A stretch of DNA of 64,000 bases from Chitinophagaceae bacterium. GTDB taxonomy: Bacteria > Bacteroidota > Bacteroidia > Chitinophagales > Chitinophagaceae. The notes below the pieces were generated by a model. That model was not told the origin of the DNA, searched no databases, and saw only the letters and a list, made by a program, of their open reading frames with translations. Position numbers and translations under genes: made by a program. The stretch covers positions 1 through 64,000 of the forward strand of contig JAHBTJ010000018.1 of assembly GCA_019638595.1 (NCBI GenBank), written 5' to 3'. Below are positions 32,616 through 64,000 of this stretch, one piece after another. Position 1 is the stretch's first letter. Each line of letters starts with the position of its first letter.

Positions 32616-32880
32616 AGGACGAAGACAGGCGCCCGGGATTTTTTGGTCTTGAGAACCTTGAATTACATGCTCCGGTTCTTCAAATAATGGTTGAAGGATT
32701 GTACGATCATCAAAGCGCTAAAGATAGTAAACCATTCGCACTCAACGACTTTATAAACATTATAAGAAGTTGTATAAAGAGGATAAGGTACGGGATGCAG
32801 CATATGGGAATAGATCCTTATGCCCTATGCTTTCTCACCAACTGGTCCAGCCACCATCCACCACAAGGTTATGCCCCGTA
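32582..32880 (+). pseudogene. C-terminal gene fragment of unknown family across repeat copy 2
   Basis: A frame with no start codon upstream of the repeat runs through copy 2. It reads RRPGFFGLENLELHAPVL, then the repeat-coded QIMVEGLYDHQSAKD, then SKPFALNDFINIIRSC and YGMQHMGIDPYALCF. The composition looks like conserved protein, not noise. After about 32826 the frame runs into the antisense of the next gene. I do not recognise the family. It shows that the repeat is a piece of a former coding sequence. Confidence 0.45.
32679..32726. repeat. 48-bp direct repeat, copy 2
   Basis: Identical to 27587-27634 in the same orientation. The bases on each side of the two copies differ, so the repeat ends are sharp at 48 bp. 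Confidence 0.9.
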
Positions 32881-33614
32881 ACATAGCCAGACACATCTGA
32901 TAATAAAAAAGCTACCGGCCCTGCAATTTCATCAGCAACACCTATTCTACCCATCGGTGATTTTTTTGCAAGCCGTGCTATAAAATCAGGATAATTTTGC
33001 TGAACAGCCGGGTTGGGAAAAGGTCCCGGCGATATACAATTCACCCGTACTTGCTGCTTTGCCCAATGCACGGCGAGATATTTTGTCATTTGAATAATGC
33101 CGGCCTTACCCACGCCATATTCCAGCGGATTCTTGCTCATAGGCGCTTCGTATACCTCGTCGTTGGGAGATACCATACCGTACATGCTTGAAAACAACAC
33201 AATGCTTCCCCTACCCTTTTCAATCATGTTGTTTGCCACTTCACGGGCAAGTATAAACGTAGCGGTAAGCGCCGCGTGGTTTACCTTGTCAAAATCTTCA
33301 TCGGTAAGTTCTTCCAGCCTTTTGGAAGTAGAACCAAACGCGAGGTTGACCAAGCCATCCGGGCTACCGTAAAGCGCTACCTGCTCTTTAACGAACTCAG
33401 CAATAAAGCCCGTATCGTTAATATTGAAAGAAGCTGTTGCAACGCTATCGCTTAGCCCTGCATTATTTACAAAATCAGCAGCACGGTTTTCCATATCTAT
33501 ACATAATATCTTTGCACCGAGGTTACTTAAGAATGTAACCACTGCCTGCCCGAGGTAACCGGCTCCTCCAATCACCCAAATCAATTTGTCTTTTAATTGA
33601 AAAGCATTATTCAT
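32835..33614 (-). CDS. SDR family oxidoreductase (cluster, 3' end)
   Basis: A cytosolic NAD(P)-dependent dehydrogenase of about 259 aa. ATG 33614 (MNNAFQLKDKLIWVIGGAGYLG) is preferred over 33641 because the cofactor motif then begins at the usual distance. GGAGYLG binds the cofactor, Asp after strand two (CIDMEN) favours NAD, FSSMYG gives the catalytic Ser and EYGVGKAG gives Tyr and Lys. It begins 28 bases (with the upstream ATG, 1 base) after the alcohol dehydrogenase gene, so they share a transcript. It resembles the SDR at 36277-37056 and is likely its paralogue. Confidence 0.88.
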   Translation of the reverse strand: MNNAFQLKDKLIWVIGGAGYLGQAVVTFLSNLGAKILCIDMENRAADFVNNAGLSDSVATASFNINDTGFIAEFVKEQVALYGSPDGLVNLAFGSTSKRLEELTDEDFDKVNHAALTATFILAREVANNMIEKGRGSIVLFSSMYGMVSPNDEVYEAPMSKNPLEYGVGKAGIIQMTKYLAVHWAKQQVRVNCISPGPFPNPAVQQNYPDFIARLAKKSPMGRIGVADEIAGPVAFLLSDVSGYVTGHNLVVDGGWTSW

Positions 33615-33642
33615 ATCTGTTCTTTTTATCGGATTAAACATC

Positions 33643-34773
33643 TCAGGTAAATGATATAATCTGTCTCAGCGCAGCACCGGCAGCTAATCGCTCCACTCCT
33701 TCATTTATTTCATGCAGGCCTATGGTATGAGACAATAACCGCTCAACAGGCAACCTGCCTGACAGGTGTAAAGCAATAAATGCGGGGATATCTCTTGCAG
33801 GGATACAGCTACCTAAATAAGAGCCTTTTAAAGTCCTTTCTTCACCCACCAGCAATGCAGGAGACAAAGCAAAAGAAACAGAAGGATGAGGTAAGCCGGC
33901 GGTAACGGTAACACCCCCACGCTTTGTGGAAGCATAGGCAAAATCCAATGCTTTAACAGCGCCGGCAAATTCCACGGCAATATCCGCACCGCCACCAGTA
34001 ATATCTTTTATTTGCTGCACCGCCTCCGGGTCAGCAGGATCTAACACATAATGGGCGCCCATAGCCAGCGCCACAGTTCGTTTATCTGCATTGATATCGG
34101 CCGCTATTACTGTTGCGGCTCCACCGGCCAAAGCCCCAAGCAATGCGGCGAGCCCTACACCGCCGAGTCCCACAACAAGAACAGTTTGCCCGGCATTTAA
34201 TTTAGCGGTATTGATAACAGCGCCCACACCTGTCAACACCGCGCAACCAAACAACGCCGCGACAGCATACGAAATATCCGCATTGATCTTTACCAGGGAA
34301 CGACGCGATACTACCGCGTATTCCGCGAACGCCGATACTCCAAGATGATGCTGAAGATCGCGGAGTGAGACATTTTTCAGGCGGACACTTCCGTTCAGCA
34401 ATATGCCTTTTGTATTGGCGGCAGCGCCCGGCTCGCAGAGTGCAGGCCGTCCTGTCATACAGGGAATACAATGCCCGCAGGCCGGCACAAATGAAAAGAC
34501 AACATGATCACCAGTCTTCAGATCATCTACACCTGCACCACATTCCACTACTTCTCCGGCTGCTTCATGACCGATTACCATGGGTAGCGGTCTTGGGCGA
34601 CTGCCGTCAATTACCGATAAGTCTGAATGACATATACCCGCGGCATGTATCTTTATCAAGACTTCTTCCTGCAACGGAGCGCTCAGGTATACTTCTTCAA
34701 TTTGCAGCGGTTGAGTTTCAGTGTATGGTCTGGGCTTCCCTGTTTCATACAAAATCGCAGCCTTCATTTTCAT
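33643..34773 (-). CDS. Zinc-dependent alcohol dehydrogenase (MDR family)
   Basis: A 376-aa medium-chain dehydrogenase. Catalytic zinc ligands are Cys48 (GICHSD) and His69-Glu70 (GHEAAG); the structural zinc site has Cys99, Cys102, Cys105 and Cys113 (CGHCIPCMTGRPALC). The Rossmann motif is GLGGVG, followed by AADIN (Asp, NAD preference). It is of the class III-like type and should oxidise an alcohol or aldehyde of the pathway in the cytosol. It is tightly spaced with both neighbours (1 and 18 bases), within the long minus-strand unit. Confidence 0.92.
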   Translation of the reverse strand: MKMKAAILYETGKPRPYTETQPLQIEEVYLSAPLQEEVLIKIHAAGICHSDLSVIDGSRPRPLPMVIGHEAAGEVVECGAGVDDLKTGDHVVFSFVPACGHCIPCMTGRPALCEPGAAANTKGILLNGSVRLKNVSLRDLQHHLGVSAFAEYAVVSRRSLVKINADISYAVAALFGCAVLTGVGAVINTAKLNAGQTVLVVGLGGVGLAALLGALAGGAATVIAADINADKRTVALAMGAHYVLDPADPEAVQQIKDITGGGADIAVEFAGAVKALDFAYASTKRGGVTVTAGLPHPSVSFALSPALLVGEERTLKGSYLGSCIPARDIPAFIALHLSGRLPVERLLSHTIGLHEINEGVERLAAGAALRQIISFT

Positions 34774-34791
34774 ATGACTTATTTGATCGTG

Positions 34792-36246
34792 CTAATTGAA
34801 TTTTATTGAATACAGGTCCGCATCTTTAAGATAAAACTTTAGCCTGATCGTTTTTCCTGCCAGCGGGGAAACATCCTGCGTCCCCTTCCACAATACTATA
34901 CGGCTGATCTCGTTTCCTATCATTTCCTGGCAGTCGTTCACTTTAAATCCAGGTACCGGTTTATTTTCTTCATCCAGTATTTCAACCTTCACATAACCTG
35001 CCGCGGAGGTAGCATAATTTATTTCCAGCTCTCTTCCTTTAAATACAAAAGGCTTTGTAAGCGCTTCACCCGCCGTAAAATCAGCATGCAGGGAAGCAAA
35101 TCCATCCAACCGCAACGTATACCTTTTGATATGCGCCGTTGGCTGCGCATAGCTTTCATTAACGTATACTGACATTTCTGCTTTTCCTGTTTGCACCACA
35201 TTTAAAACAGGATAATTAGACCGCGATACCCAGTTCTCCAGTCCAATGCCGGGACGGATAAAAGATTGCATGAATGTTCTGTCGTATACATTCCCTCCCC
35301 GCGTGGTCATCAGCACCGCGTCTGAACAGTCTTTAAAATAATTGGGATTTATATCCAGGGCTTTTGCCTGCTCTTCGGAAATCACCTGGCGTTCCGGCAT
35401 AAACCTCGCTCCTATGGCAATATAAATTTGCGGAGCACGAAAATAAGGACTGGTTTGATTGGTGTACAAATGTTCAGGCGCCGTATTGCCAAAGCCCATC
35501 CTGGCCGGAGCAGTCCAACGGATAAAATCTTTTGATGTGGTTTTGCTTACCGACCGGAAACCTTTGTAATCCGTAAATCCCCCATCGCTCCAGGTACGGA
35601 AATAACAAACATACTGTTGCTCGCTCTCCGACCAGAAAGCTACATTCTGCGAATCGAAAACACCTGTTTTAAAAACGGCTGTATCTCTCCATTTTTTCCA
35701 GTGAATACCGTCTGCGGAAACAAATGCGATCAATCCCGTTTTATTGGTACCTCCCAGGGCTTTAAATTTTTCGGCCGGTTTAACGTTGGGGTTTGCATCT
35801 AAGAACGGGCTGAAATTATGCGTGGCAGGCGCTGTATTTGCCAGTATCACATTATTATTTTTTGTTCCATTCACTGTATAAATTCCCAGCGAGGGTTTGT
35901 TCCAGTGAATGCCATCGTCAGACTCCGCGTAACAGGTAACCTCATTATCATTTCCATCCTTACCGGCCTCACGGATGCCACGATAATATAACCGGTAACG
36001 ATCGTTATCTTTTATGACCGTACAATAAGCAGAGAAATTTCCTTCCCAGGGCTGGTCAAACTTCAACACCATACCTTCATTGCGGGGATAGTGCAACTGC
36101 TGCACTACGCCTGTCATTGTTTCGATGAGATACTGGTCAATGAAAAGCTCCCTGTTATTTCCCAATGGCAGGGGACCTGGAGTTTGCGCAGGCAGCAGCA
36201 GGCTTAACAATACACATACAGGTATGATCAACACCGCTTTTCGCAT
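34792..36246 (-). CDS. Secreted five-bladed-propeller glycosidase-like protein
   Basis: An exported protein of about 484 aa. ATG 36246 gives a clean signal peptide (MRKAVLIIPVCVLLSLLLPAQ). It opens with RELFIDQYLIETMTG, and carries YRLYYRG, ESDDGIHWNKP and SADGIHWKKW, the repeating blade marks of GH32/GH43/GH130-like propellers. A C-terminal beta-sandwich (about 380-484) follows. Proteins with the LFIDxYLI opening are common in Planctomycetota and Bacteroidota; I cannot give a family number or activity. It is embedded between dehydrogenase genes, which suggests that its product feeds them. Confidence 0.75.
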   Translation of the reverse strand: MRKAVLIIPVCVLLSLLLPAQTPGPLPLGNNRELFIDQYLIETMTGVVQQLHYPRNEGMVLKFDQPWEGNFSAYCTVIKDNDRYRLYYRGIREAGKDGNDNEVTCYAESDDGIHWNKPSLGIYTVNGTKNNNVILANTAPATHNFSPFLDANPNVKPAEKFKALGGTNKTGLIAFVSADGIHWKKWRDTAVFKTGVFDSQNVAFWSESEQQYVCYFRTWSDGGFTDYKGFRSVSKTTSKDFIRWTAPARMGFGNTAPEHLYTNQTSPYFRAPQIYIAIGARFMPERQVISEEQAKALDINPNYFKDCSDAVLMTTRGGNVYDRTFMQSFIRPGIGLENWVSRSNYPVLNVVQTGKAEMSVYVNESYAQPTAHIKRYTLRLDGFASLHADFTAGEALTKPFVFKGRELEINYATSAAGYVKVEILDEENKPVPGFKVNDCQEMIGNEISRIVLWKGTQDVSPLAGKTIRLKFYLKDADLYSIKFN

Positions 36247-36276
36247 GTAATGTAACAGGCACATTCAATATTATTT

Positions 36277-37056
36277 TTAAGCATACAATCCGCCGTCAAT
36301 TAAAATGTTCTCTCCGTTAATATACGCTCCCGCATCTGAAGCTAACAATACGATCAAACCTTTAATATCATCCTTGTTCGCCATCCTGCCCAGCGGAACT
36401 TTTTTGCAATAATTTTCTACAAATTTTTCCGGCTGGTTGTTGAACAACCCTCCGGGACTGATACAGTTAAAACGGGTATTCTTGCCGGCATGCGTTTTAG
36501 CCATGAAACGGGTAAGCATGATCAACCCGGCATTATGAAAGCAATAATCCGGGGCAATATCACCCATGCCCGGTATACCATCGTAGTTCGAATATATAGG
36601 TGCATACATACCCATCATAGAGCTGATATTGATCACACTGCCTCCTCCTGACCGTATTATCAGATCTGTCATCTCCCTGAGGATATCCATCATGCCGGTG
36701 GCATTCACCCGCATAGATTCATCAAACTGTTCGATAGTTCCGTTGTATCCTTTCATGGGCCGTGATACAGCATTGTTGATAAAAACATCCAGCTTACCGA
36801 ACTGCTTTATAATATTTTCCTTCAGGTTTAATACCGATGCTTTATCCGCCTGGTCTACCTGCATACCATGAACATCCCATCCTCCTGCACGGAAATCCGC
36901 TGCCGTCTTTTCTATAGCCTCCATATTACGGGAAGCAATGATCACCGTAGCGCCCGCTTCGCCCAAGCCTTCGGTGATGGAGCGGCCATAATTACCTGCG
37001 CCACCTGTAACTAATACCACCTTGTTCTTTAAACTAAACAATTGCATTACGTTCAT
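36277..37056 (-). CDS. SDR family protein with replaced catalytic lysine
   Basis: 259 aa with a normal Rossmann core (VTGGAGNYGRSI, 16-27), NNAVSRP, and catalytic Ser145/146 in ISSMMG. The active-site motif, however, reads Y171-C-F-H-N175: the lysine of YxxxK is asparagine. The aligned motif in the paralogue at 32835-33614 is YGVGK. Loss of Lys normally abolishes or strongly weakens SDR activity, so the protein may use another general base, act as a structural partner, or be non-catalytic. It is spaced 6 and 12 bases from its neighbours, clearly within the operon. Confidence 0.85.
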   Translation of the reverse strand: MNVMQLFSLKNKVVLVTGGAGNYGRSITEGLGEAGATVIIASRNMEAIEKTAADFRAGGWDVHGMQVDQADKASVLNLKENIIKQFGKLDVFINNAVSRPMKGYNGTIEQFDESMRVNATGMMDILREMTDLIIRSGGGSVINISSMMGMYAPIYSNYDGIPGMGDIAPDYCFHNAGLIMLTRFMAKTHAGKNTRFNCISPGGLFNNQPEKFVENYCKKVPLGRMANKDDIKGLIVLLASDAGAYINGENILIDGGLYA

Positions 37057-37062
37057 GCGTAA

Positions 37063-37983
37063 CTATTTTAAATGAATGACTTTTCCCCCGGAAAGCCTGC
37101 TTGTTTCCGCAGCGATCACGGTATTGATGATATTTTTTGTTATGCTGAAATCCAACCGGGGTTTTCCTTCTTTCACACTCCGCAAAAACTCTATAATATT
37201 ATCACGGAACATGGAATATGAGTTTTTTATATCCGCCATCTGCCATGCCTGTTGCCCAAAGAATGTAAGCTGAAACGTTCCTGAGATATCCATGAACAAA
37301 TGGATAGTAACAGGTAAGCCGTTTTCAAAAGTAAGGTGAACCACATCTCTTCCCTTTTCTCCAATATGCTGAACCGTTGCAACTTTTGGATCATCCAGCG
37401 TTGCAAACATCGCTTCAATCATGTGCACGCCATATTTCAGCCAGTCTTTTTTTCCAACCGCTGTAACTAATTCAAGCTTACCTAAGGTGGCAATATTCTG
37501 TTTAACAACCCTGCATTCATTAGCATAACGCATAGAGGAACAGGACATGATGAATTTACCGCTATCCTGTTGTTGGTCAAACCAATCCAGGTCTTCCTGT
37601 TTAATGGCTAAGGGCTTATCAATAAAAACGGGTATGCCCGCTTCAATAAAGGGTTTAGCCATTTCAACATGAAATTCAGCATCATCACGGGCAAGTATAA
37701 CCGCATCTACGTTGCCGATCATACCTTCCGCTCTTTCCGCTATATTTTCAATACCCGAGGAGGCAGCGATACTTTTTGAAATGGAAATATCCTGTGTCCA
37801 CACATATGTCACTTTTGCTTCAGGTAAACCGAGCGTATCTTTATTGGCATTAAGATAGGCGGTTACCCCCGGATAACCTATAGACGCAATCTCTGCCCCA
37901 TTATACTTACCATTTATAATAGATGACCATGAATAAGGATGCGCATTGCCTGCGCTCATCCCGATGATACCGACGCTTAACAT
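37063..37983 (-). CDS. Gfo/Idh/MocA-family oxidoreductase
   Basis: About 306 aa from ATG 37983 (MLSVGIIGMSAGNAHPYSW). A longer frame to 38046 exists, but its first 21 codons are only the intergenic AAATTTCAAATC-type repeat, so I reject it. The N-terminal Rossmann domain (1-125) has the nucleotide-binding GIIG motif and AGIPVFIDKPLA with the conserved EKP-like Lys. The C-terminal alpha/beta domain follows. The family oxidises or reduces sugars and cyclitols with NAD(P). The GMSAGNAHPYSW start is unusual for the family (typically GxGxxG), but is shared by a Bacteroidota subgroup. Confidence 0.85.
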   Translation of the reverse strand: MLSVGIIGMSAGNAHPYSWSSIINGKYNGAEIASIGYPGVTAYLNANKDTLGLPEAKVTYVWTQDISISKSIAASSGIENIAERAEGMIGNVDAVILARDDAEFHVEMAKPFIEAGIPVFIDKPLAIKQEDLDWFDQQQDSGKFIMSCSSMRYANECRVVKQNIATLGKLELVTAVGKKDWLKYGVHMIEAMFATLDDPKVATVQHIGEKGRDVVHLTFENGLPVTIHLFMDISGTFQLTFFGQQAWQMADIKNSYSMFRDNIIEFLRSVKEGKPRLDFSITKNIINTVIAAETSRLSGGKVIHLK

Positions 37984-38186
37984 TTGAGATTTGAAATTTA
38001 ATATTTGATATTTGAACCACGGAGGCACAAAGACACGGAGGTGCACAGAGTGGTTTGTTGTTTATGGTTTATAGTTTGTTGTTTATGTTTTTTATAGTTC
38101 TTTATTTAAAAGCTCTTGGCTAATTGCTCACGGCTCATAGCTGATAGCCGATTGCTGACGGCAAATTTCAAATCTCAAATCATAAA
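37984..38186. repeat. Composite intergenic word repeats, four families
   Basis: In order: TTTGAGATTTGAAATTTAAT, an ACGGAGGCACAAAGACACGG stretch (38018-38037), GTTTATGGTTTATAGTTTG, GCTCATAGCTGATAGCCG, and CAAATTTCAAATCTCAAATC. The first and last are inverted partners. It separates two genes of the long minus-strand unit. Confidence 0.65.
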
Positions 38187-39140
38187 TCACCTCAGCCACC
38201 CCATCTTATCCCAATACGGCAAATTCAAAAAAGCAGGATCGGGATAGGCAAGCGAACGCGCCTGCTGTAAACGACCTTTATTCATATAGTTCCCATCCGC
38301 CGCTTTTAATGATTCCAGCAGGTATGACTCTTTGTCTATACCCACCAGTACTGAAGAAACCTCCGGGAAAGACAATGCGAACTTCACTGCCGTTTCAGGA
38401 AGCGATTCCCCGTTCAGCAATAGCTGGTCGTACTCTTTTATATGCTCCTCTACCTGCTGAAGCGCCGGGTGTAAACCTGTTCCCCTGGTGCTTAATAGTC
38501 CCTTCAATAAAACAGAACGCACCACTATACCTATTCCGCTCTTTGCCGCCAACTCAAACAACGATTGCTGGCGCTGATCCATTAAGTTAAAAGGGAGCTG
38601 TATCACATTCCACACCTCAGCGTCAATGGCTTTCCGGGTCTCTTCCACACTATAAGTAGACACCCCAATGGCTCTTACCACACCGGCTTTTTTAAGCCGA
38701 AGCATTTCATCAGCAATAACCTGCCTGTCAAGTATCTCCATATCAGCCTGGTGAAGCATATACACATCAATGTAATCTGTTTGCAACGCCTGCAGGCTTT
38801 CTCTTAACGACAGGTGTACCAGGTTCCGTATCTCTGTGTCGGAAGGAAGCAATCCTTCCGCATTCCTGAAATGGCGGCATTTTGTGGCAAGTACAATATC
38901 CTGGCGGCAGTGCTTAAACGCTTTCCCCATGATACTTTCACTTACACCATACATACGGGCGGTATCAAAAAAATTGAACCCTTTTACAACAGCAGTTTGC
39001 AACAGTGTAAGAGCTTCTTTCTCAGAGATCATATCTTCTTCTCCATTCACCCCTATGCCATAAGGCAGTCCGATTTCTACTCCTCCAAATGCAATTTCCG
39101 AAACCTGTATGCCTGTATTGCCTAAATTCCTTCTTTGCAT
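38187..39140 (-). CDS. Aldo/keto reductase
   Basis: A 317-aa NADPH-dependent reductase of the AKR family, cytosolic. FFDTARMYGVSE has the catalytic Asp and Tyr, VLATKCR has the catalytic Lys, and YMLHQAD has the His. The beta/alpha-barrel is full length. It follows the aldolase gene by only 2 bases, so the two products probably act in sequence, for example reducing an aldehyde released by the aldolase. It resembles L-fucose/D-threo-aldose dehydrogenase-like members, but that is only a family-level likeness. Confidence 0.9.
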   Translation of the reverse strand: MQRRNLGNTGIQVSEIAFGGVEIGLPYGIGVNGEEDMISEKEALTLLQTAVVKGFNFFDTARMYGVSESIMGKAFKHCRQDIVLATKCRHFRNAEGLLPSDTEIRNLVHLSLRESLQALQTDYIDVYMLHQADMEILDRQVIADEMLRLKKAGVVRAIGVSTYSVEETRKAIDAEVWNVIQLPFNLMDQRQQSLFELAAKSGIGIVVRSVLLKGLLSTRGTGLHPALQQVEEHIKEYDQLLLNGESLPETAVKFALSFPEVSSVLVGIDKESYLLESLKAADGNYMNKGRLQQARSLAYPDPAFLNLPYWDKMGWLR

Positions 39141-39142
39141 TG

Positions 39143-39949
39143 CTATTGCTTTTCAATATAGGAACTGCTGCCTGCAGGTGAAGTATTATCAAACGCCTGC
39201 ATCAATGAAGCATAATAGTTTTTCAACCCTACCACATCGGCGCCTATGCTTACGAACTGGTAACCCATTGCGTTCAACTCTTTCAGGTTGGCAGGACTTC
39301 CTACCGTTCCGGCAAATTTTCCATGTTTCCTGGCAAGGGTTGCCACCCGTTTTCTTGTTTCAATCAGTAACGGGTGATCCCATACTCCCGGCGCGCCTAT
39401 CCCCTGGCTGAAATCACCGGGACCAAAAAACAACATATCATAGCCGGGTAACGCGGCAATAGCCTCCAGCTCATCCAACGGTTCCGGATCTTCGATCTGC
39501 AGCACCACAAAACGTTGCTCGTTGGCTTCCTGTAAGTATTGGAAAAAGTCTACACCGGTATATCCACCGTCTGCATTGCCTCCGTCTATCGCTCTTCTTC
39601 CTACAGGATGAAACCTTGTGTGGTATACTATTTCCTTAGCATCGGCAAGACTGAGTATATGCGGCACCATAATGCCTGTTGCATCCAGTTCCAGGGGTTT
39701 GATATAATTGTTATAAGCGCCTCTCGGAACTCTTACCAGCAGATCAGCATTATGCGCCTTTGTTGCCCAAACAGAAGCTTCCAGCGCCGACCAATCCTGG
39801 CTGATGTGCTCCTGGTCTACCCATACGCAGTCAAAGCCGGCCAGCGCCGCCATTTCGCATACCCGCGGATCTGCCAGGTTAATTTTTATACAACTCACAT
39901 TCTCACCTGCACGAAGCTTTTTTAGTACCCGGCTTTTACGCATTTCCAT
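39143..39949 (-). CDS. HpcH/HpaI-family aldolase
   Basis: A 268-aa class II (metal-dependent) aldolase that makes or breaks C-C bonds of 2-keto-3-deoxy or 4-hydroxy-2-oxo acids, releasing pyruvate. Signature stretches are DCVWVDQEHI, VLLQIEDPEP-like (VVLQIEDPEPLDELEAI, with the metal-binding Glu) and DMLFFGPGDFSQGIG. Length and motifs are complete. It points to an acid-sugar or hydroxy-keto acid intermediate in this pathway. It is followed after 2 bases by the aldo/keto reductase gene. Confidence 0.88.
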   Translation of the reverse strand: MEMRKSRVLKKLRAGENVSCIKINLADPRVCEMAALAGFDCVWVDQEHISQDWSALEASVWATKAHNADLLVRVPRGAYNNYIKPLELDATGIMVPHILSLADAKEIVYHTRFHPVGRRAIDGGNADGGYTGVDFFQYLQEANEQRFVVLQIEDPEPLDELEAIAALPGYDMLFFGPGDFSQGIGAPGVWDHPLLIETRKRVATLARKHGKFAGTVGSPANLKELNAMGYQFVSIGADVVGLKNYYASLMQAFDNTSPAGSSSYIEKQ

Positions 39950-39956
39950 AGAAAAA

Positions 39957-40071: not shown

Positions 40072-41325
40072 TTATTGTTTACTCACCGACCGTTTCAACA
40101 AATACAACGACAGCGCACCTGCCGCCAGCAGGAATGCAGCAATCCTGAACAATAAGCCAAGATCTATATTGATATCCCGGAGATACCCGCCTGCATATAT
40201 ACCTATTCCTCCAATTACAGTAGCAAAAAGATTCAGCAGTCCGTAAGCGGTTGCCCTGTATTTCTGATCTACCACCATGCAGAGTATCGGCATCATATTG
40301 CCATCTGAAAATATCCGGGTAAAAGCGTACAGCATAAAACAAGCTACCGCTATCACCAGCACAGGAGAATACCCCGCAACAAAAATAGCGGGAGCAGCAA
40401 TACACAAGCCGATCATCGGCAGCAATATCCTTGCATAGCTGTTGGAGCGGGTCCACCTGTCTGCTAAAAAACCGCCCACCAATACCCCGATGATAGAGGC
40501 TATATGGAAATAGCCTGTGGCATATACGCCTGCCATTGTTTGCGACAGGCTGAACTTTTCTTTATAGAAAGTGGGCAGCCAGCCACCGATCACCCAACCC
40601 ACAATACCGATCATGCTCCAGGTAAACAATATTTTCAGGTAGCTTTTATTGGTCATCAAATATTGGATCACTGTAAAAAATTTCGGCTTATCTCCCAGGT
40701 CTATCTTCTCAACCGCAGTTTCTGTTTGCTCAGGCTCTTTGTTATCTCTTAAACCAAATATCAGCACAACGGCATATATTATCCCGATGCCTCCTAATAC
40801 ATTAAAAGCAAAGTTCCAGGAGTGAGCCTCCGCCAGCCAGCCACCTATAAAGCCAAGGCTCTGCCCCACCATGATACCCATAATATGCACGCTGTTGGCA
40901 AAAGACCTGGTATTGCCCCTGTGATAATCCATGATCAACGCCAGTGCGGTAGGAATATAAAATGCTTCACTGATCCCCATCAAAGCCCTTGTTACAAGGA
41001 GATATTCGAAACTAGTGGCATATGCTGTTAAAAAGGTAACTCCAGACCACACCAAAAGACTCACGATAATGATCCTGCTTTTATTGAATTTATCGGCAAT
41101 AAAACCGGCAACCGGACTTAAAAAGCCATATACCCATAAAAAAACGGAAGTGAGCAAACCAAACTGCGCATCTGTCATATGTATCTCAGCCACAATAGAG
41201 CTACGCATGGTGGTGATCATCATCCTGTCGAGGTAATTCAACAGTCCCACCACGCATAGCATGGCCACTACCAGCCAGGGATAAAAGGAAGATTTATGTA
41301 TGGACGGTCCAGATTGCTGATTCAC
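40072..41325 (-). CDS. MFS transporter
   Basis: A 417-aa inner-membrane carrier with twelve predicted helices. The marks of the anion:cation symporter/hexuronate-type MFS are visible: NYLDRMMI in helix 1, the GFIADKFNKSR loop, RALMGISEAFYIP in helix 4, and a second-half loop GGFLADRWTRS. It should import a small, probably acidic solute, driven by protons or sodium. It stands upstream of the aldolase and dehydrogenase genes in the same direction. It is the only inner-membrane carrier recognised in the cluster. Upstream of it the strand changes for the Rpn gene. Confidence 0.9.
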   Translation of the reverse strand: MNQQSGPSIHKSSFYPWLVVAMLCVVGLLNYLDRMMITTMRSSIVAEIHMTDAQFGLLTSVFLWVYGFLSPVAGFIADKFNKSRIIIVSLLVWSGVTFLTAYATSFEYLLVTRALMGISEAFYIPTALALIMDYHRGNTRSFANSVHIMGIMVGQSLGFIGGWLAEAHSWNFAFNVLGGIGIIYAVVLIFGLRDNKEPEQTETAVEKIDLGDKPKFFTVIQYLMTNKSYLKILFTWSMIGIVGWVIGGWLPTFYKEKFSLSQTMAGVYATGYFHIASIIGVLVGGFLADRWTRSNSYARILLPMIGLCIAAPAIFVAGYSPVLVIAVACFMLYAFTRIFSDGNMMPILCMVVDQKYRATAYGLLNLFATVIGGIGIYAGGYLRDINIDLGLLFRIAAFLLAAGALSLYLLKRSVSKQ

Positions 41326-42505: not shown

Positions 42506-42556
42506 ACTTCAGTATTATTATGGTAGTAAGATTTACATTTAGTATTACGACGCATC

Positions 42557-45863: not shown

Positions 45864-45874
45864 AGTAACATTCA

Positions 45875-45960
45875 TACAGGTTACCGGTTGCAAGTCTCAG
45901 GTTCCAGGTTTACTTCTAACGCAAGCCTCTGATAGCTGATTGCTGACAGCCCACCGCTCA
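45875..45960. repeat. Intergenic word repeats
   Basis: GGTTACCGGTTGCAAG, TCAGGTTCCAGGTTT and GATAGCTGATTGCTGACAGC, members of the families seen at 26216-26285 and 38125-38161. It lies between two operon genes and covers the alternative 5' end of the HEAT-like gene. Confidence 0.6.
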
Positions 45961-56900: not shown

Positions 56901-57195
56901 CCTCTTTTTTTTCAAGCCCTACAAAACTTACTTCCAGCACGGCATTGAGATTGTTCACCGTAATCGTAAAGCTGCCGTCATCCTGGGTCAACGTAGAGGT
57001 AGTAGTTCCTTTTACGCTCACAGTAGCGCCGGGTAGCCCTTCACCATCTTCGTTTGTTACTTTTCCCGTAACCCTGGTTTGAGACTGTGCCAACGCAGTA
57101 CTGCATATTAAAAGCAACAACAAAGCAGAGGCTTTACCCAATAAACAGGCAGATGAAAAAATGCTGCCACAGCATTTTAGAAATTCTCGTATCAT
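53950..57195 (-). CDS. SusC/RagA-family TonB-linked outer-membrane transporter (cluster)
   Basis: About 1081 aa. The ATG at 57195 (MIREFLKCCGS, then a hydrophobic core ending at LAQSQT) is preferred; an ATG at 57255 adds 20 polar residues that would hide the signal peptide. In order: carboxypeptidase-regulatory-like domain (VTGKVTNEDGEGLPGATVSVKG), plug domain with VVVVGYGTQSREALTTSI and the IIRSDLSNIPSQEIESLQVLKDAASTAIYGARGSNGVVIVTTKSG region, and a long barrel ending LIFSASITL. No STN domain. It energises uptake of the ligand via TonB. Confidence 0.93.
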   Translation of the reverse strand: MIREFLKCCGSIFSSACLLGKASALLLLLICSTALAQSQTRVTGKVTNEDGEGLPGATVSVKGTTTSTLTQDDGSFTITVNNLNAVLEVSFVGLEKKEVSLAGKSTVSVILSSAKGNALSEVVVVGYGTQSREALTTSITKLDTKVLENVPFANLASAMQGALSGVRVQSTSGQPGAAPRVIVRGGTSINNPDGAAPLYIVDGIIRSDLSNIPSQEIESLQVLKDAASTAIYGARGSNGVVIVTTKSGKPGKIQVAYSFNHITSKVGNMYDLVNAREYLELNRGSAVKEPDKTRDGAIQRLTLPMGYGTGNDLTNNTAFTTQYLTADNEHKLQEGWLSMPDPADPTKTIIFEDNDFQALNYQTGISQNHHLSVSGGTDRATFHAGIGYLDNVGTVITTGYKRLSFALNGEFKVRDNLKVFGKVLYSNSSQRNSPFATAVTFYRSAGLGPTGKVYFEDGTMAPGTNNGIGNPLYQMNTMINRNSLDNLTIILGSSWNILPGLSFDPQISLFNTSNDGYSFQKAFWNGPASYVTTRNAGGSNSRWRQYQADAVFSYVKSVASAHNFEAKAGFSFYSRQQTSLSANGRGASTDLIPTLNASSEPTSVSSSISDQVIVGYFGRINYDYKQKYLLSINARYDGASNLGANYRWGAFPGVSAGWNLHNENFWSSMPKELSSLKLRASYGVNGNISGLSDFQAQGAYAVGSRYAGQAAIQNTVLPNPDLKWEQSKTFDIGLDLGLLDNRISFLFDYFKRRTDNLITSLSLPRSTGFTSILTNFGSLQNTGVEFEVAARVLPATSAFQWRLAFNASKIRNQILKLPANGVLNNRVGGDFVWDEGAKDYVWKGGLQEGGRMGDMYTLKQVAIYATDAEAASGPTYTYIVGTDKTQYGGDVKFYDADGNNIIDGRDQVYMGNIYPAWTGGISNTFSYKGVSLYVRMDYTTGHTIFNYGKLFLDMNGYSDGSFTKEKYQKSWKEPGDVAEQSRYYWGGERVQRNNFFGVTDRGNSIFYQKGDFLCLREVTLSYSVPEQLLKRVKISGLRFNITANNLYYFTKYDGLNPEEGGRDDGRYPMPKNLIFSASITL

Positions 57196-57255
57196 ATTCG
57201 CAGTTTTTGGTAATTTTTTAGAAAAAGGTTGATCATTAAAATATTTTTCGCTCAT

Positions 57256-57545: not shown

Positions 57546-59828
57546 TCAGTCTTTAAAAATAGTCAGCAGGAATTGACAGTTCAATATTTTTTCTACAAGA
57601 TCCTGTACAACGTAATAATACTGGTTGGAGGCTTCATATCCTATTCTCGAATCTTCCCTGCAAATACGATACAGTTCAGCCGCAAGACTTATTTCATTTT
57701 CCAGGATAGTACGGATGTTTTGTCTGATCGTTTTACGGACAGCATCCGGAGGCTGTCTGCTCGTTAAACTGTCCCTGAAAACGATAAACCGTGCCTGGTT
57801 TACTACCGACGCGAAATGAAGGTATGCAGCAGCAGCGATGCGCTCATCAGACAGAGCAGTGTGCCTGTGCAAACCGTTTGAGATATTTTTTACCTGCCGG
57901 AAATATTCAAGCCCTTTCAGCCATCCGTCAGCTACGCTTCGGAACTGATTTATAAAAACGGAATCCGGGTATATGCCTCTCCATCCTGTAAGATCATCGT
58001 AGGGAAATCCAACCATAGTTGCCTTGTAACCGGTTGCTTTTTCGTAAAGCAGGTTTGCCGGACCATATTGCTGTGGTCCCAAATATAATGTACTTACATT
58101 GTAAGGGTATGCTTCAAATGCTTTACTGAAAGCAGTCCACGCTTCACGGGCAGCATGTACTGCGGCAGGACCGTACCTGTCTGCAGCCACACCGTCCAGC
58201 AGATCACTTCCCGCTGATCTGCCCTGGTTTAAGCAGAGGTCTGCAATGGTCATATTCGGAGAAGGATAACCGCCCAGCGACCAGCTCAGCATCAGGCCAT
58301 CCATAGCATAATTTGAAAGAGCCGATATATGTTGCTGCACCAGGTCAAAAACAGGTAACCAGGGAACAGCAGAAAGTTCCCACGAATTATTTACCTGCAC
58401 TTTAGCAAAGGTTTTAAGCCCTGCCTGCTTTGCCCATGCCCAGTGTTGGGTAGCACGCGGCCCGGGTCCGACAGCCGATAGGGAATATTCTCCAACCTTT
58501 GATTCAATCCCTCCCCTGCTGATGGGCTTGGCCCATTCGCTCACCGACATCAGGTATACCGACTTAGGTAATGCGGTGATTACATCCTGCGCCAGTCCAT
58601 GGTTGTGCCAGCCCCAATCCCATACAACTACTTTAGCATTGGGATTCCCGGCATGTACTCCTTCTTCGATAACACGATTAACGCCTGCGATAATATCAGC
58701 ATAACTGCGCTGGCTACACCGGGAGCAAAGTTCGGGATGACCATGAGAGGCGCAATTGGTAAAGTTCTCTGATGCTGTAATAGTAAGCACGCCCGCAAGC
58801 CCGGGCACATTTTTAAAAACAAAAGCCAACGATGCTCTCATCCAGTTAGTAACAGTTGTACTACTGGTGCACATAGCATAAAAACTGCCTTCCTTTGTTC
58901 CCTGCATACCGGAGCGGTTCGTAAAAAAGGAAGCGGGCATTGCCCTTGGCTCATTCATATACAGGTAAATGCCTATACCGTATTTAGCAGCCCGCTCAAC
59001 GATCTTTTTCAAATTATGTATCCGCACTTCATAACCTGCGCCGAATTCCGGGAAATCCTTACCACCGGGCGCCATCTGGTTAAGCACCGTATGCATCCAG
59101 ATACCATTCACCCCGCTCCGGGATAATTTTTCGAGCAACCCATCCGGGTAGGGGTCCCGGGATGTATCAGAAAGCGGATCACCAAAGATGCCGAAATAAG
59201 AATACACGATCCGGGGCAGGGCATTAATATCACCGACAGCCGGCTTGCTAATATTGCTGTTGAGGGAAACCCGGCTGAGCTCTTCTATGAATTTAAAACG
59301 GGGTACAGTGGCTTGCTGATGAAAATACTTGTCGGCGATCTTTTTGATCGCTGCAGCCCCGGCGACGGTTTCCGGGCCCGGTGCAACATACCTGAGCTCC
59401 CCTACCTTTGGTTTTAAGCTTCCCAGCTTAATGAAAAGAAAATCATCTTCCTTAAGCGCAACAGACAATTCATGGCTGCTCATACCCAACAGTTTCAGTA
59501 ACTGGTCATACGGCAACAAATGCCAGTTCCTCCTTATAACTGTAATGTATATGCGATTTTTGAAAGATTCATCCACCGCTATATAAGGAGGCAACCCCAT
59601 TGATACCGCTATCCGGGATATGTCTGACTCTTTACATCCTATCGCTCTGCTCATTGCATCCAGGCTTACGAGATTCCAGTTACGCCACACAAAAGCGTGT
59701 AGCCTGTCGGGGAAATGAGTTACGGGTATGGCATCGGGATATGTACCAACAGGCAGGCTGTCTGATTGTGAAAAAATTTCTTTAGAAAAGAAGATTAACA
59801 CCAAAAGCAGACAGCAAATCCTTTTCAT
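57546..59828 (-). CDS. Secreted GH20-like TIM-barrel glycosidase-like protein
   Basis: A 760-aa exported protein (signal peptide about 1-20). The N-terminal part (25-200) is mixed alpha/beta. The central TIM barrel (about 210-560) has IVYSYFGIFGDPL, GVNGIWMHTVLNQM, KKIVERAAKYGIGIYLYMNEPRA, GVLTITASENFTNCASHGHPELCSRCSQRS and AKVVVWDWGWHNHG. The order 'SExxTNCxSH ... CxxC ... VVWDWGW' resembles GH20-type beta-hexosaminidase relatives in Bacteroides. The CxxC pair may bind a metal. The C-terminal helical part resembles hexosaminidase accessory regions. Activity is inferred only. Confidence 0.7.
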   Translation of the reverse strand: MKRICCLLLVLIFFSKEIFSQSDSLPVGTYPDAIPVTHFPDRLHAFVWRNWNLVSLDAMSRAIGCKESDISRIAVSMGLPPYIAVDESFKNRIYITVIRRNWHLLPYDQLLKLLGMSSHELSVALKEDDFLFIKLGSLKPKVGELRYVAPGPETVAGAAAIKKIADKYFHQQATVPRFKFIEELSRVSLNSNISKPAVGDINALPRIVYSYFGIFGDPLSDTSRDPYPDGLLEKLSRSGVNGIWMHTVLNQMAPGGKDFPEFGAGYEVRIHNLKKIVERAAKYGIGIYLYMNEPRAMPASFFTNRSGMQGTKEGSFYAMCTSSTTVTNWMRASLAFVFKNVPGLAGVLTITASENFTNCASHGHPELCSRCSQRSYADIIAGVNRVIEEGVHAGNPNAKVVVWDWGWHNHGLAQDVITALPKSVYLMSVSEWAKPISRGGIESKVGEYSLSAVGPGPRATQHWAWAKQAGLKTFAKVQVNNSWELSAVPWLPVFDLVQQHISALSNYAMDGLMLSWSLGGYPSPNMTIADLCLNQGRSAGSDLLDGVAADRYGPAAVHAAREAWTAFSKAFEAYPYNVSTLYLGPQQYGPANLLYEKATGYKATMVGFPYDDLTGWRGIYPDSVFINQFRSVADGWLKGLEYFRQVKNISNGLHRHTALSDERIAAAAYLHFASVVNQARFIVFRDSLTSRQPPDAVRKTIRQNIRTILENEISLAAELYRICREDSRIGYEASNQYYYVVQDLVEKILNCQFLLTIFKD

Positions 59829-60120: not shown

Positions 60121-61749
60121 CTAGAAATACCCGCACTCTTCCACGGAACCGTATTTTAATGCAAGCTCGATCCGTTGTACGATCAGCCCGTTTGCCGGTG
60201 AAGAAAATACAATTTTATTATTGCCCTGCATGATCGCATTTGCAGGTATAATGAACGCGGTAACTTTTTGATGATCGTTCATCCCGCGCAGCTTATCATA
60301 CAAACCGGGATAACCGGTATTGGTATGCTCTAAAGGGTGATCATTTATGGATACCGAAAAGGAGTCTTTTGTACTGGTACGTATGAACAGGATCGCTTCC
60401 TGCGGCTGATCTGTATGTACATCATCGCCCACAAAGATCCCTGTCTCAGTACTTTGCTGTACGGTTAATGGCAGCGGGCTATTGGGAGTTAGATCATAAG
60501 ATGTGGCGCCATCTGAAAGCATGTATACTTTGTTCCTTTTTCTCAGCGTTTCCAGCGATCCAAGCTCCTGTAATAATTCCGGCGCGATCGTACGGCACAC
60601 CAGGGTGCCTTCTTCCGGCTGCAATTTTTGACCGGCTTCGTTGTATGCAGTTAAAAAATAATTGAAAAGATAGGCCCCGCCGGCGCCCTGAGCCATGGCA
60701 TGAGATACCATCCCCCTGTACATTCCATGCGAATAAACCTCGCGGGGGTTATAGGTACCATCGTCCAGTGATGCATATACCGGGATTTCAAAGCCTGATT
60801 GTTTTTTAAACTCCGCTACCGGCATAGCAGGCTCGCCACGCCAGTGTACACCTAACGTAACAAAATCAAGCAACCCTCTCTTTACCCACTCCTGCACTTC
60901 CAGTCCTTTCTTTTTGCAATCGCCCATGGTGGCAGGGATCCTTGCTGTCAGCAATATTTTTTTGTTATGAAGCTTACCAACAGAATCTATAATATTTTTT
61001 ACAGCCTGCACCAGCTCTGTTATTAACGGCGCATTTTTTTCAGCTTCGTCTTTTTTGAAGTACACAATAAAACGCATAAAATCCAGTTCATACCCGTCTG
61101 TGAATGCTCCGTATTTTTCAAGCTGCTCTTTTATAATATTCAATTTATATTCCCGCACTTCCGGGTGAGCAAAATCAAAAGCGCTCCTGGCATTCCAACC
61201 ACTTAGTGTGGTATCGTTCGTCCAGTACCGGGGATGCTCTTTCCAAAATTCACCGTATTGCAATGGACATCCTACGCTGGTATCTGCAAAATGCAGATCA
61301 TTCATGCGATAAGTAATAAAAGCTTCCAGTTGTTTTTCTTTGGCTCTTTTCAATGTAGCTTCTATAATGTCTGTTCCCTGCTTATCCAGCACCATGGCGT
61401 TTTCATAAAACCTGCGAAGCGTATTATAGAGTTCTGTGTTTTTCCCACAATCCAGCTTACCGTTTTTATCATCTCCCATTATACTGCCGTATTTGGAGCG
61501 ATAGTAAAAAAAGTCGCTTCCGGAACAGATCATAAAAGTAGTAACCTGAGAATGCGCGATCATATCCACATAGCTGTTAACATCCTCCAATGTTAATGGT
61601 CTTTTACCAAACCAGTTATTACCCAAAATTTCGGTACCATCGTTGTTATGGATCAAACGATGCTTTACGGCAACAGTATCCACCGCATTCTTACAAGCCG
61701 GTAAAGTAACGAGCCAGCAAAATGCAATACTATATAGCAGCTTTATCAT
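60121..61749 (-). CDS. GHL10-like TIM-barrel lipoprotein
   Basis: A 542-aa lipoprotein (lipobox VTLPAC, Cys about 19). The central barrel resembles the glycosyl-hydrolase-like family GHL10/DUF187: HSQVTTFMICSGSDFFYYRSK, AKEKQLEAFITYRMNDLHF, DFAHPEVREYKLNIIKEQLEKYG, and DGYELDFMRFI, a typical motif with an acidic pair. A C-terminal beta-sandwich (about 430-540) ends it. Substrate is unknown. It is in line with the SusCD operon but separated by 292 bases, so it may have its own promoter. Confidence 0.72.
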   Translation of the reverse strand: MIKLLYSIAFCWLVTLPACKNAVDTVAVKHRLIHNNDGTEILGNNWFGKRPLTLEDVNSYVDMIAHSQVTTFMICSGSDFFYYRSKYGSIMGDDKNGKLDCGKNTELYNTLRRFYENAMVLDKQGTDIIEATLKRAKEKQLEAFITYRMNDLHFADTSVGCPLQYGEFWKEHPRYWTNDTTLSGWNARSAFDFAHPEVREYKLNIIKEQLEKYGAFTDGYELDFMRFIVYFKKDEAEKNAPLITELVQAVKNIIDSVGKLHNKKILLTARIPATMGDCKKKGLEVQEWVKRGLLDFVTLGVHWRGEPAMPVAEFKKQSGFEIPVYASLDDGTYNPREVYSHGMYRGMVSHAMAQGAGGAYLFNYFLTAYNEAGQKLQPEEGTLVCRTIAPELLQELGSLETLRKRNKVYMLSDGATSYDLTPNSPLPLTVQQSTETGIFVGDDVHTDQPQEAILFIRTSTKDSFSVSINDHPLEHTNTGYPGLYDKLRGMNDHQKVTAFIIPANAIMQGNNKIVFSSPANGLIVQRIELALKYGSVEECGYF

Positions 61750-61764
61750 TCCTTAATATTATTT

Positions 61765-61868: not shown

Positions 61869-63230
61869 TTACGGTCTTCTTCCCGCCATTTTATACAATT
61901 CATTTCTTACAATGTGCTCTCCGTCTTCCTTAACATGACTGGTCCTGCACCGCCAGGTTTCATATCCGCCCTTTTCAATTTCATGTGCAGGAGGTATATA
62001 CCCTATATAACCGTTTGCCATAGTGATGGTAAAATATTTGCCCGTATTGATCTTTTCTTTTAAAGCCAGCCCCGTTTCCGCAAAAAATTCACCACCCAGT
62101 GCGCCAATGGTGATATCACCTATCTTCAACACCTGTACAGGAAACTCAATTGTATCCGGGTATTCATTCAAAAATACCTGCTCTCTCGCGTATATTTTCA
62201 CCATAGCTTCTGCATCAGGATGGATGAGGCGATAATCTGTTTGTGCAACTATTTTTTTGGCGGTTTCTACCTCAGCAACGGAAGGTTTACGCACACCTAA
62301 AGTGACGTATTTGAATGAAGCAGATAAAGAAGGATCTGTTTGCCATTCGATGTTTTTCAAAGCTTCATATAATTTCCCTGCAAGATCCCTGCCTATCAAT
62401 TCTTTTTTCTGATGCTCCTCTTTAGGATAACGATCCGGCTGCAAGAAATCCCAGATGTTTGCTTCTCCGCTGGTGCCGTTGCTGAGCAGGGCAACAAAAT
62501 TTTCTCCTGCCTTTAAATCAGCAGTGATATGTCGTGCAAATACTGCAAAGTAATCTGCGGTTACGGTTCCATTAGCGCAATCGCCCACGTAATGCATGGA
62601 ATAATTAGCCAGCAGGCTGATCCATTCTCCCGCCATGGATTGAATAGCAATGGCACTTAACTCAGGATCAACTTCCGAAGCGCGTTTGTCAATATAAGCT
62701 TCTCCACCGGCAGGATTGGTTTTGATAATATCTAATTCACCGGTTACAGGATTAACTGCTTTATAACCCGGCTTCATATAATACCGCCTGCATACCACAT
62801 GCTCCGGAACATCCACAGCGGCAAAGCCGATTTTTGCCGGTTGTAATTTTTTTACGGCTTCTGTTACAGATTGTATGATCTTCCTGCCAAGACTTTTCCT
62901 GTACGGTAAATCGCAGGGTCCCCCCAAAAGATCAAGTATGGAGCCTGCATAGTGAGTATGCGTTGCAGCAATCAATATATTTTCAGCAGGAATATTTGTA
63001 AGCGCTGTTATTTCTTTTTTTACCTCCGTAATAAATTCCTTATCCATTGCACAGATATCAACGATCACAACAGCCAGGGTTGTACCCGCATTCCGAAGCA
63101 CCAATGCTTTTGAGTACAAAGGATCGTGGATGGTATGCGCGTAAAAAGCCACAAACTCACCGTTGATGATCGTTCCAAGCGGTGGAGTAATATCTGTTTG
63201 GGCGGCGCCGGCGGAAAAAGGATGATTCAT
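61869..63230 (-). CDS. Neutral ceramidase-like amidase without signal peptide
   Basis: A 453-aa protein of the neutral/alkaline ceramidase N-terminal family: FSAGAAQTDITPPLG at the start, ILIAATHTHYAG (zinc-site histidines), NYSMHYVGD, and LLSNGTSGEANIWDF. Unlike the related protein at 8793-10070 it has no signal peptide (MNHPFSAGAAQTDI), so it is probably cytosolic. It lacks the C-terminal domain of true ceramidases. It should cleave an amide or a related bond in an imported molecule, which fits the aminotransferase fusion in the cluster. Confidence 0.8.
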   Translation of the reverse strand: MNHPFSAGAAQTDITPPLGTIINGEFVAFYAHTIHDPLYSKALVLRNAGTTLAVVIVDICAMDKEFITEVKKEITALTNIPAENILIAATHTHYAGSILDLLGGPCDLPYRKSLGRKIIQSVTEAVKKLQPAKIGFAAVDVPEHVVCRRYYMKPGYKAVNPVTGELDIIKTNPAGGEAYIDKRASEVDPELSAIAIQSMAGEWISLLANYSMHYVGDCANGTVTADYFAVFARHITADLKAGENFVALLSNGTSGEANIWDFLQPDRYPKEEHQKKELIGRDLAGKLYEALKNIEWQTDPSLSASFKYVTLGVRKPSVAEVETAKKIVAQTDYRLIHPDAEAMVKIYAREQVFLNEYPDTIEFPVQVLKIGDITIGALGGEFFAETGLALKEKINTGKYFTITMANGYIGYIPPAHEIEKGGYETWRCRTSHVKEDGEHIVRNELYKMAGRRP

Positions 63231-63260
63231 GATATAAAAATTTAAAGCCTATCTCTCCTT

Positions 63261-63283
63261 CTCTCTTTCCAAAGGAAAGAGAG
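63261..63283. repeat. Palindrome of the CTCTCTTTCC family
   Basis: CTCTCTTTCC-AAA-GGAAAGAGAG, a perfect 10-bp stem with a 3-base loop. A related palindrome, CTCTCC-TTTGGAGAG, occurs at about 63420-63440 around the stop of the next gene. It lies between two minus-strand genes. Confidence 0.65.
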
Positions 63284-63413
63284 CGGTACTGTTGAATATA
63301 TCCAAACTTTTTGTTCTACCACATCATCAACAGAATATACCCAGGCAAGGCGTTCTCAATTCACACAACCAGGTGTATATTTATAAACCACTTTCCAACG
63401 CCGGCCCTTGTGC

Positions 63414-64000
63414 TTAGGTCTCCTCTCCTTTGGAGAGGCCGGGAGAGGCTGCACCCCATGCCCTTCTCAAAAACCGTATCCAGTTTTTGTGAAAGATATT
63501 TTCCACATCTTCTTCTTTATACCCTCGTTTTAATAATATTTCATGATACTTCTGCAGATCGGCAATAGAATTCATATCCCAGGGCGATTGCTCTGTGCCA
63601 AAATTTCCATCCAGATCGGTGCCGAAAGCAATATGTTCACTGTTGCCTGCTATCTGGCAGATATGATCCCAGTGATCTACCAGGTTTTCAAGGCGTATAT
63701 TCAGTTGCCAGGGGTCAGATACCATATCAATAAAACGGTTATCCATTGCCCAGCAATCAAGCATACCGCCTATTACCGCACCTCTTTCAATCAACAATTT
63801 TATTTGTTCGTCTGTTAGTTGCCGTTGTGTAGGCACTATTTTTCTTACGTTATGATGACTCGCCCATACAGGCCCATCATACAGATCCATTACCTGCATA
63901 AATCCTTCATCGGTGAGGTGCGTAATATCCAGTATGAGCTTTAGCTTGCTCATTTCTTTCACCAGTTCAATTCCATCCGGAGTAAGCGGCCCTTCCATTT
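63414..64000 (-). CDS. Membrane dipeptidase (peptidase M19), C-terminal part, cut by window edge
   Basis: The visible 195 codons are the C-terminal half of a renal-dipeptidase-like M19 zinc enzyme: LTPDGIELVKEMSKLKLILDITHL, PVWASHHNVRKI (metal-site His), MLDCWAMD, HIAFGTDLDGNFG (catalytic Asp) and ENIFHKNWIRFLRRA. Full proteins are about 380-420 aa, so the N-terminal half lies beyond base 64000. An internal ATG at 63998 is not the true start. The family cleaves dipeptides and some beta-lactam or amide substrates, consistent with an amide-bearing ligand for this cluster. Confidence 0.88.
   Translation of the reverse strand, partial: MEGPLTPDGIELVKEMSKLKLILDITHLTDEGFMQVMDLYDGPVWASHHNVRKIVPTQRQLTDEQIKLLIERGAVIGGMLDCWAMDNRFIDMVSDPWQLNIRLENLVDHWDHICQIAGNSEHIAFGTDLDGNFGTEQSPWDMNSIADLQKYHEILLKRGYKEEDVENIFHKNWIRFLRRAWGAASPGLSKGEET

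Follow-up and report, generated by a model that had tools for sequence, protein, structure and literature searches.

A 64,000-base stretch of a Chitinophagaceae bacterium genome (GCA_019638595.1, 7.06 Mb), comprising bases 1-64000 of the 164,830-base contig JAHBTJ010000018.1 (C10) and hereafter called the window, contains a gene cluster built around a SusCD pair that probably serves the utilisation of a sialic-acid-family sugar. The cluster consists of 25 minus-strand genes between 32835 and contig position 67826, and is longer than in a preliminary description of this DNA, which had given about 20 collinear minus-strand genes. That run is real, but it is interrupted by one plus-strand gene of the PD-(D/E)XK nuclease family (41555..42505; PF12784) and extends past the window, the end of which falls inside the gene for an M19 dipeptidase-family protein (63414..64538, cut at 64000; PF01244). 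The genes for HCDH1 (64531-65508), the class-III aminotransferase GSAM2 (65522-66853; PF00202) and HCDH2 (66840-67826) follow outside the window, HCDH1 and HCDH2 both being 3-hydroxyacyl-CoA dehydrogenase-family proteins (PF02737/PF00725). Minus-strand neighbours are spaced by less than 40 bases at 11/21 junctions within 32835..63998, about half rather than most as had been stated, and at 14/24 junctions over the whole cluster. SusC (53950..57255; a TonB-dependent receptor with PF00593, PF07715 and PF13715) adjoins SusD (52456..53931; PF07980) and carbohydrate-active genes are co-located, as expected of a polysaccharide utilisation locus (PUL).

The protein TIM2 (60121..61749) is, by sequence, a homologue of the GH156 exosialidase EnvSia156. 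Its profile matched one solved structure, that of EnvSia156 (6rzd, E 6.8e-35), and a single-sequence phmmer comparison with the same protein gave E 2.7e-35 over residues 50-447. EnvSia156 is reported to bind N-acetylneuraminic acid (Neu5Ac), N-glycolylneuraminic acid (Neu5Gc) and the deaminated sialic acid KDN, with Asp14 as the base, His134 as the acid and Arg129, Arg202 and Asn346 as a carboxylate clamp (PMC6811678). His134, Arg129, Arg202 and Asn346 are matched in TIM2 by H153, R148, R226 and N363, and R270 stands at a further aligned place; D37, which the pairwise alignment does not reach, was matched to Asp14 by profile and spacing. In the 40 GH156-like frames from the retrieved loci (30 distinct once aligned), the His and the Arg202 place were kept in all 40 and the Arg129 and Arg246 places in 39 each, while the Asn346 place held Asn in 32 and Asp in four and was uncovered in four; an Asp occupied the Asp14 place in 27/27 frames covering it. 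TIM2 differs from EnvSia156 in its distance (about E 1e-35) and in its setting: the EnvSia156 fosmid is said to have GH29 and GH20 neighbours and not to be a PUL (PMC6254351, PMC6811678), whereas TIM2 lies in a SusCD locus. The cluster had been described as lacking any recognisable classic polysaccharidase; no endo-acting one was seen among the cluster proteins, but TIM2 is a recognisable glycosidase.

An Amidohydrolase_2 domain and a class-III aminotransferase domain are fused in a 774-aa protein without internal stop (42557..44881; PF04909, PF00202), of which 31 distinct full-length sequences were obtained from the retrieved loci and the window. Residues H30, H32, H170, H202, D255 and K605, which we take to be metal ligands and the pyridoxal-phosphate lysine, were at least 95% conserved (34 rows, 31 distinct). 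The aminotransferase half shares 28% identity with GSAM2 and 41-50% with single-domain relatives (tblastn), a family that, judged by gene content, is found mostly in loci for the biosynthesis of nonulosonic acids of the pseudaminic or legionaminic type. The 42 loci of single-domain relatives contained NeuB/PseI in 22 cases, SpsF in 30, PseC in 26, PseB in 23, an aldo/keto reductase (AKR) in 19 and PseG in 12, with none of these six probes in seven; the probes came from two loci of the form PseB-PseC-AKR-SpsF-aminotransferase-PseG-PseI (L060 and L085), which match by construction. In the probe loci, Pfam confirmed NeuB, CTP_transf_3, DegT, Aldo_ket_red and Polysacc_synt_2, and gave no match for the PseG probe. 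Published clusters include a Legionella serogroup 6 O-antigen cluster in which PseG, a gene annotated as glutamate-1-semialdehyde aminomutase (GSAM) and an acylneuraminate cytidylyltransferase are consecutive (PMC3694923), and a nonulosonic-acid cluster with an SpsF-like cytidylyltransferase fused to an AKR (PMC7371886). The fusion loci share the aminotransferase family with these biosynthesis loci, but carry the fused amidohydrolase domain and had NeuB/PseI, SpsF, PseC, PseB and PseG in 0/38 and an AKR in 3/38, the 38 including a few loci with split or cut genes.

In a quick tree of 88 aminotransferase rows, 43 single-domain rows grouped together (Shimodaira-Hasegawa-like approximate likelihood ratio test, 96) and the family separated from GSAM2/HemL-type rows (94); the fusions did not form one clade. 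HemL, the glutamate-1-semialdehyde aminomutase, has the class-III aminotransferase fold family in common with the fusion and sits on a separate branch. Both cluster aminotransferases fell below the NCBIfam HemL cut-off of 527.3 bits, the fusion scoring 176.6 bits and GSAM2 348 bits. The two halves of the fusion are separate, overlapping genes in L089 and L097, which suggests that they are coupled. Single-domain members also occur in loci that do not look biosynthetic, for example L093 and L098. These two alphaproteobacterial loci have ABC-transporter genes, a single-domain aminotransferase, a NanA-like protein, a DapA-family protein of the window's type (40%) and PhyH-type genes (47-50%, partly cut off in L093), with a BNR-like gene recognised by eye in L098, and may be a parallel catabolic locus.

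Two sialic-acid-type loci were found elsewhere in the same genome, their SusCD genes being called from the places of SusD matches, homology and inspection by eye. L162 (contig C1) looks like a canonical sialic-acid locus in its gene families: it has SusCD, an MFS carrier, a BNR protein with BNR_assoc_N, NanM (PF24996) and an AGE-type epimerase (PF07221), the last two above cut-off, and a DapA-family protein with N-acetylneuraminate lyase as best model (127 bits, cut-off 281). In L160 (C45:320001-340000), SusCD is accompanied by two BNR proteins, one of them with a FRIP sequence, by a NanA-type lyase (165.7 bits, below cut-off) and a second DapA-family protein, and by a NanM-SSS fusion, two PhyH-like proteins and a 2-hydroxyacid dehydrogenase. 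The cluster's MFS carrier (40072..41325; PF07690) is 41% identical to that of L162 (E 2e-99). Its DapA-family lyase/aldolase (46734..47675; PF00701) is 49% identical to the second DapA-family protein of L160 and matched none of the other five of six compared DapA-family proteins at E 1e-5; the genome has eight DapA-family places including the window's, and C7:137739 was left out of the comparison. The adjacent PhyH2 (45966..46721; PF05721) is 58% identical to an L160 PhyH protein, and in L160 these relatives of DapA and PhyH2 neighbour a FRIP-type sialidase.

Bacteroidetes nan loci are reported to combine NanA and NanE or AGE with NanM, NanT, NanO/NanU and GH33 (PMC3969230). The cluster resembles such loci, and L162 and L160, in its SusCD pair, related MFS carrier and related DapA/PhyH pair, but has no NanA-, NanM- or AGE-family match (no PF04131, PF07221 or PF24996 among the Pfam matches of its proteins) and has extra genes for the fusion, HpcH, HCDH1 and HCDH2, GSAM2, M19, Gfo/Idh and AKR. 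No NeuB was found in the window's genome, so the organism is probably a consumer of nonulosonic sugars; NeuB was likewise absent from 13/16 fusion-carrying or kin genomes.

The remaining genes largely bear out the preliminary description, in which SusCD, the ceramidase-like and M19 proteins, the MFS carrier, DapA, HpcH, PhyH and the amidohydrolase/aminotransferase fusion were all named correctly according to Pfam. Its four or five oxidoreductases are five by Pfam: the short-chain dehydrogenases SDR1 (32835..33641; PF13561/PF00106) and SDR2 (36277..37056; PF13561, with PRK09186 and others as best NCBIfam models, below cut-off), a Zn-dependent alcohol dehydrogenase (33643..34773; PF08240, PF00107), a Gfo/Idh/MocA-family oxidoreductase (37063..38046; PF01408) and an AKR (38187..39140; PF00248). 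An HpcH/HpaI-family aldolase (39143..39949; PF03328) adjoins the AKR gene, a HEAT-like protein (44895..45893; HEAT_2 slightly below cut-off) adjoins the fusion, and a neutral-ceramidase-like protein (61869..63230; PF04734) lies between TIM2 and M19. The plus-strand PD-(D/E)XK gene is probably outside the cluster's function; a PF12784 gene on the opposite strand, with 81-84% identity, also lies within the L021 and L023 clusters. No regulator was found among the 25 genes. Upstream of HCDH2, a 658-base gap is followed by a TPR-histidine kinase, a metallophosphatase-like gene (recognised by eye) and a second SusCD pair, in a genome with 77 SusD matches.

The five propellers claimed earlier were recovered in part. 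BNR_2 (PF13088) scored above the Pfam cut-off in two proteins only, BNR3 (48778..49959), related to Dfer_1899 (5hx0, profile E 4e-206), and BNR5 (51260..52360), with sialidase-type structure matches. The secreted-looking Prop1 (34792..36264) had no Pfam match and weak GH130/GH32-type structure matches (best E 7e-4), and is possibly a GH130/GH32-like five-bladed propeller. For Prop2 (47691..48749; secreted-looking, unclassified) and its paralogue Prop4 (49997..51034; 48% identity by alignment), neither a Pfam match nor a meaningful PDB match was obtained, so a propeller fold is only putative for these two. A structural comparison of the TIM-barrel proteins had been proposed, and the glycosidase-like TIM1 (57546..59828) was modelled with AlphaFold2 (mean predicted local distance difference test score of the better model, 67.6). 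Foldseek placed GH138 first (E 1.1e-10, template modelling (TM) score about 0.4), then GH20, with GH67/GH115 glucuronidases lower, and VIA-align ranked other barrels first; fold sharing of this kind proves no function. TIM1 is rare, being found in 3/395 Bacteroidota genomes, with copies 50-83% identical to the window's.

Conservation was searched with the 774-aa fusion as bait. In the window's family, 3/244 genomes had the full-length fusion (G000, the window's own genome, G028 and G123) and two a single-domain relative. A scan of named genomes, in which the best 80 of 585 relatives were kept, returned Bacteroidota, Verrucomicrobiota, Planctomycetota, Spirochaetota and others among those 80, with the fusion carried by Chitinophaga alhagiae and Membranihabitans marinus. 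Nine Bacteroidota genomes were compared (G000, G028, G123 and G244-G249; the short Bacteroidales contigs L034 and L042 were excluded). HCDH2, HCDH1 and M19 were together in 9/9, GSAM2 lay within this module in 8/9 (G245 has too little space there), and the ceramidase-like gene was found in 8/9 (the G246 contig stops after M19). HpcH was near the fusion in 8/9 and did not appear in the 22 kb from G249, and the HpcH-AKR-Gfo/Idh-SDR2 row was present in 6/9, G246 and G247 ending within the retrieved stretch and G249 not showing it. SusCD, BNR3 and Prop1-type genes were each found in 7/9. The MFS carrier was present in G000, G028, G244 and G248, and an SSS-type carrier in G028, G123, G245, G246 and G247 (there fused to another domain), recognised by eye except in G245 (PF00474). 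The preliminary description would have been contradicted by scattering of these genes in relatives: the fusion and the HCDH/M19 module shared one contig in 6/9 genomes (G000, G028, G123, G244, G245, G248), and in the other three (G246, G247, G249) they were on separate contigs, where linkage is not visible. This recurrence of gene content and order indicates that the cluster is more than a chance assembly. HCDH2-M19 pairs with Gfo/Idh, SDR or TIM1 genes nearby were also noticed in other loci of the relatives (L110, L111, L113, L114 and L115), and the recurring pairs suggest a common sub-pathway.

Taken together, we judge it somewhat probable that the cluster is a SusCD locus for the utilisation of a nonulosonic sugar other than plain Neu5Ac. 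The substrate would perhaps be of the bacterial di-N-acyl type, such as a pseudaminic or legionaminic acid derivative, because two class-III aminotransferases and three amide-hydrolase-type proteins can be counted against two N-acyl groups. The preliminary description expected an acidic sugar with amide or amino substituents, not a plain polysaccharide; a nonulosonic sugar, to which GH156, the aminotransferase family and the relations of MFS, DapA and PhyH point, agrees with this. Nothing specific to a cyclitol or glycolipid was found. Whereas the protein families, the GH156 active-site residues, the conserved residues of the fusion and the gene linkage are read directly from the sequences, the substrate, the order and direction of steps and the cell locations are our inference. 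Outside the inner membrane, the GH156 homologue, aided by BNR3 and other secreted proteins, would free a terminal acid. SusCD would bring this acid through the outer membrane, and the inner membrane would be crossed by way of the MFS carrier or, in relatives, of SSS-type carriers. Inside, the amidohydrolase half of the fusion, M19 and the ceramidase-like protein could strip the acyl groups, the aminotransferase half and GSAM2 would convert the freed amines to carbonyls, the SDR, Gfo/Idh, AKR, alcohol dehydrogenase and 3-hydroxyacyl-CoA dehydrogenase-family enzymes would adjust the oxidation state, and the HpcH- and DapA-family aldolases would cleave the keto acid, giving pyruvate and an aldehyde. 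A more specific version is a doubtful, though conceivable, proposition: catabolism of di-N-acylated nonulosonic acids (pseudaminic/legionaminic type) free of NanA, NanE and NanK, in which deacylation, transamination and oxidation would take place twice, one round being the work of a fused deacylase-transaminase whose aminotransferase half derives from the nonulosonic-acid biosynthesis family, before an HpcH-type aldol cleavage.

The association of GH156 with the fusion is suggestive. GH156, counted by profile search (E up to 1e-10), was found in 26/33 fusion genomes; outside these 33 stand the genomes that carry L034, L042 and L046, and also G000, G028 and G123 (GH156 present, absent and present). 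Within the family of the window, GH156 was found in 4/244 genomes (G000, G081, G123, G239), that is in 2/3 with the fusion and 2/241 others (Fisher one-sided p 6e-4). In the order of the Opitutaceae metagenome-assembled genome G253, GH156 was found in 16/132 and the full-length fusion in 3/132 (G253, G680, G705), giving 2/3 against 14/129 (p 0.039). Around GH156 genes, G239, a genome of the window's genus that lacks the fusion, has adjoining BNR3 and GH156 genes, and L158 in G081 has two GH156 genes with MFS (55%), PhyH, HCDH2 (53%), AKR (55%), glucosamine-isomerase-family, amidohydrolase and SSS genes. The G239 contigs C31 (L157) and C36 (L156) carry the same BNR3-GH156 stretch with its neighbours, perhaps an assembly duplicate, and G263, the genome of L038, has 25 GH156-profile matches, many on short contigs.

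Several observations weigh against the assignment to a nonulosonic sugar. The matched controls are weak: leaving out the window's genome reduces the family comparison to 1/2 (p 0.025), and leaving out G253, the centre genome chosen for its fusion, reduces the order comparison to 1/2 (p 0.22). The cross-phylum figure of 26/33 is confounded by phylogeny, no correction having been applied. GH156 had no match in three of the nine Bacteroidota fusion genomes (G028, G248, G249), lies on another contig in G246, and in G247 is only distant and elsewhere. In at least five other loci of the relatives (G028_C28, G123_C2, G244_C30, G246_C636 and G245_C54), HCDH2-M19 pairs occur without GH156 in sight, so this module is not specific to a single substrate or context. 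In BNR3 and BNR5 the arginine of the FRIP-type motif, as we understand that motif, was not seen by eye in comparison with the FRIP-type proteins of L160 and L162. A sugar substrate for the amide-hydrolase-type proteins is putative, no cluster gene scored above a NanA cut-off (DapA 31.9-35.2 bits against 281-382), and three fusion-carrying genomes (G245, G247, G249) do have NeuB.

The cluster might instead be an accessory locus for ordinary sialic acids, in which Neu5Ac, Neu5Gc or KDN is released by GH156 and then broken down through NanA/AGE-type genes elsewhere in the genome (L162), and the extra enzymes deal with modified neighbouring residues of the same glycan. The ligands of EnvSia156 (PMC6811678) and the presence of L162 in the same genome speak for this, but the best-conserved genes of the cluster, those for the aminotransferases, amide-hydrolase-type proteins and dehydrogenases, would have no role in it, and NanE was below cut-off in 10/10 genomes, with the AGE route seen only in the window's; we regard it as unlikely. 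A little less likely still is another acidic sugar or a uronate or ulosonate glycan, for example with side chains of Kdo or uronic acid, on which the GH156 homologue would have changed specificity. The GH138 match of TIM1, a rhamnogalacturonan II enzyme family, and the lower glucuronidase matches would fit, as would the distance of TIM2 from EnvSia156 and the best NCBIfam model of the MFS carrier, a D-galactonate transporter (below cut-off). Against these stand the carboxylate clamp and catalytic His kept in TIM2, with the catalytic Asp matched by profile and spacing, the relatives of MFS, DapA and PhyH in sialic-type loci, the absence of TIM1 from most members and the low TM score of its match. 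The ceramidase-like and M19 genes are core members of the cluster and are met again, together with HCDH genes, in loci where GH156 was not seen; as lead activities they might point to an amide-containing glycolipid or peptide-linked target with sugar release secondary; no fatty-acid or peptide uptake gene appeared among the Pfam matches of the cluster, the sialic-type relations would be left unexplained, and we consider this very improbable.

Pseudaminic acid, legionaminic acid and other nonulosonic acids are found as decorations on bacterial flagella, capsules and lipopolysaccharides, and we know of no described bacterial pathway that consumes nonulosonic acids of these types. Neither a cluster like the present one nor a pathway consuming pseudaminic or legionaminic acid was found among the open-access titles and abstract openings listed, and subscription papers or preprints could hold one. 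Nonulosonic acids have been reported in the matrix of a sludge bacterium (PMC8053191). If utilisation of a nonulosonic sugar is indeed what the cluster serves, it would provide named candidate genes for a nonulosonic-acid-consuming pathway, place GH156 in a SusCD setting and predict a fused deacylase-transaminase. The question would be testable in the named carriers of the fusion, Chitinophaga alhagiae and Membranihabitans marinus, and the cluster would offer a way to test how the sialic-acid-like sugars of bacteria are broken down.

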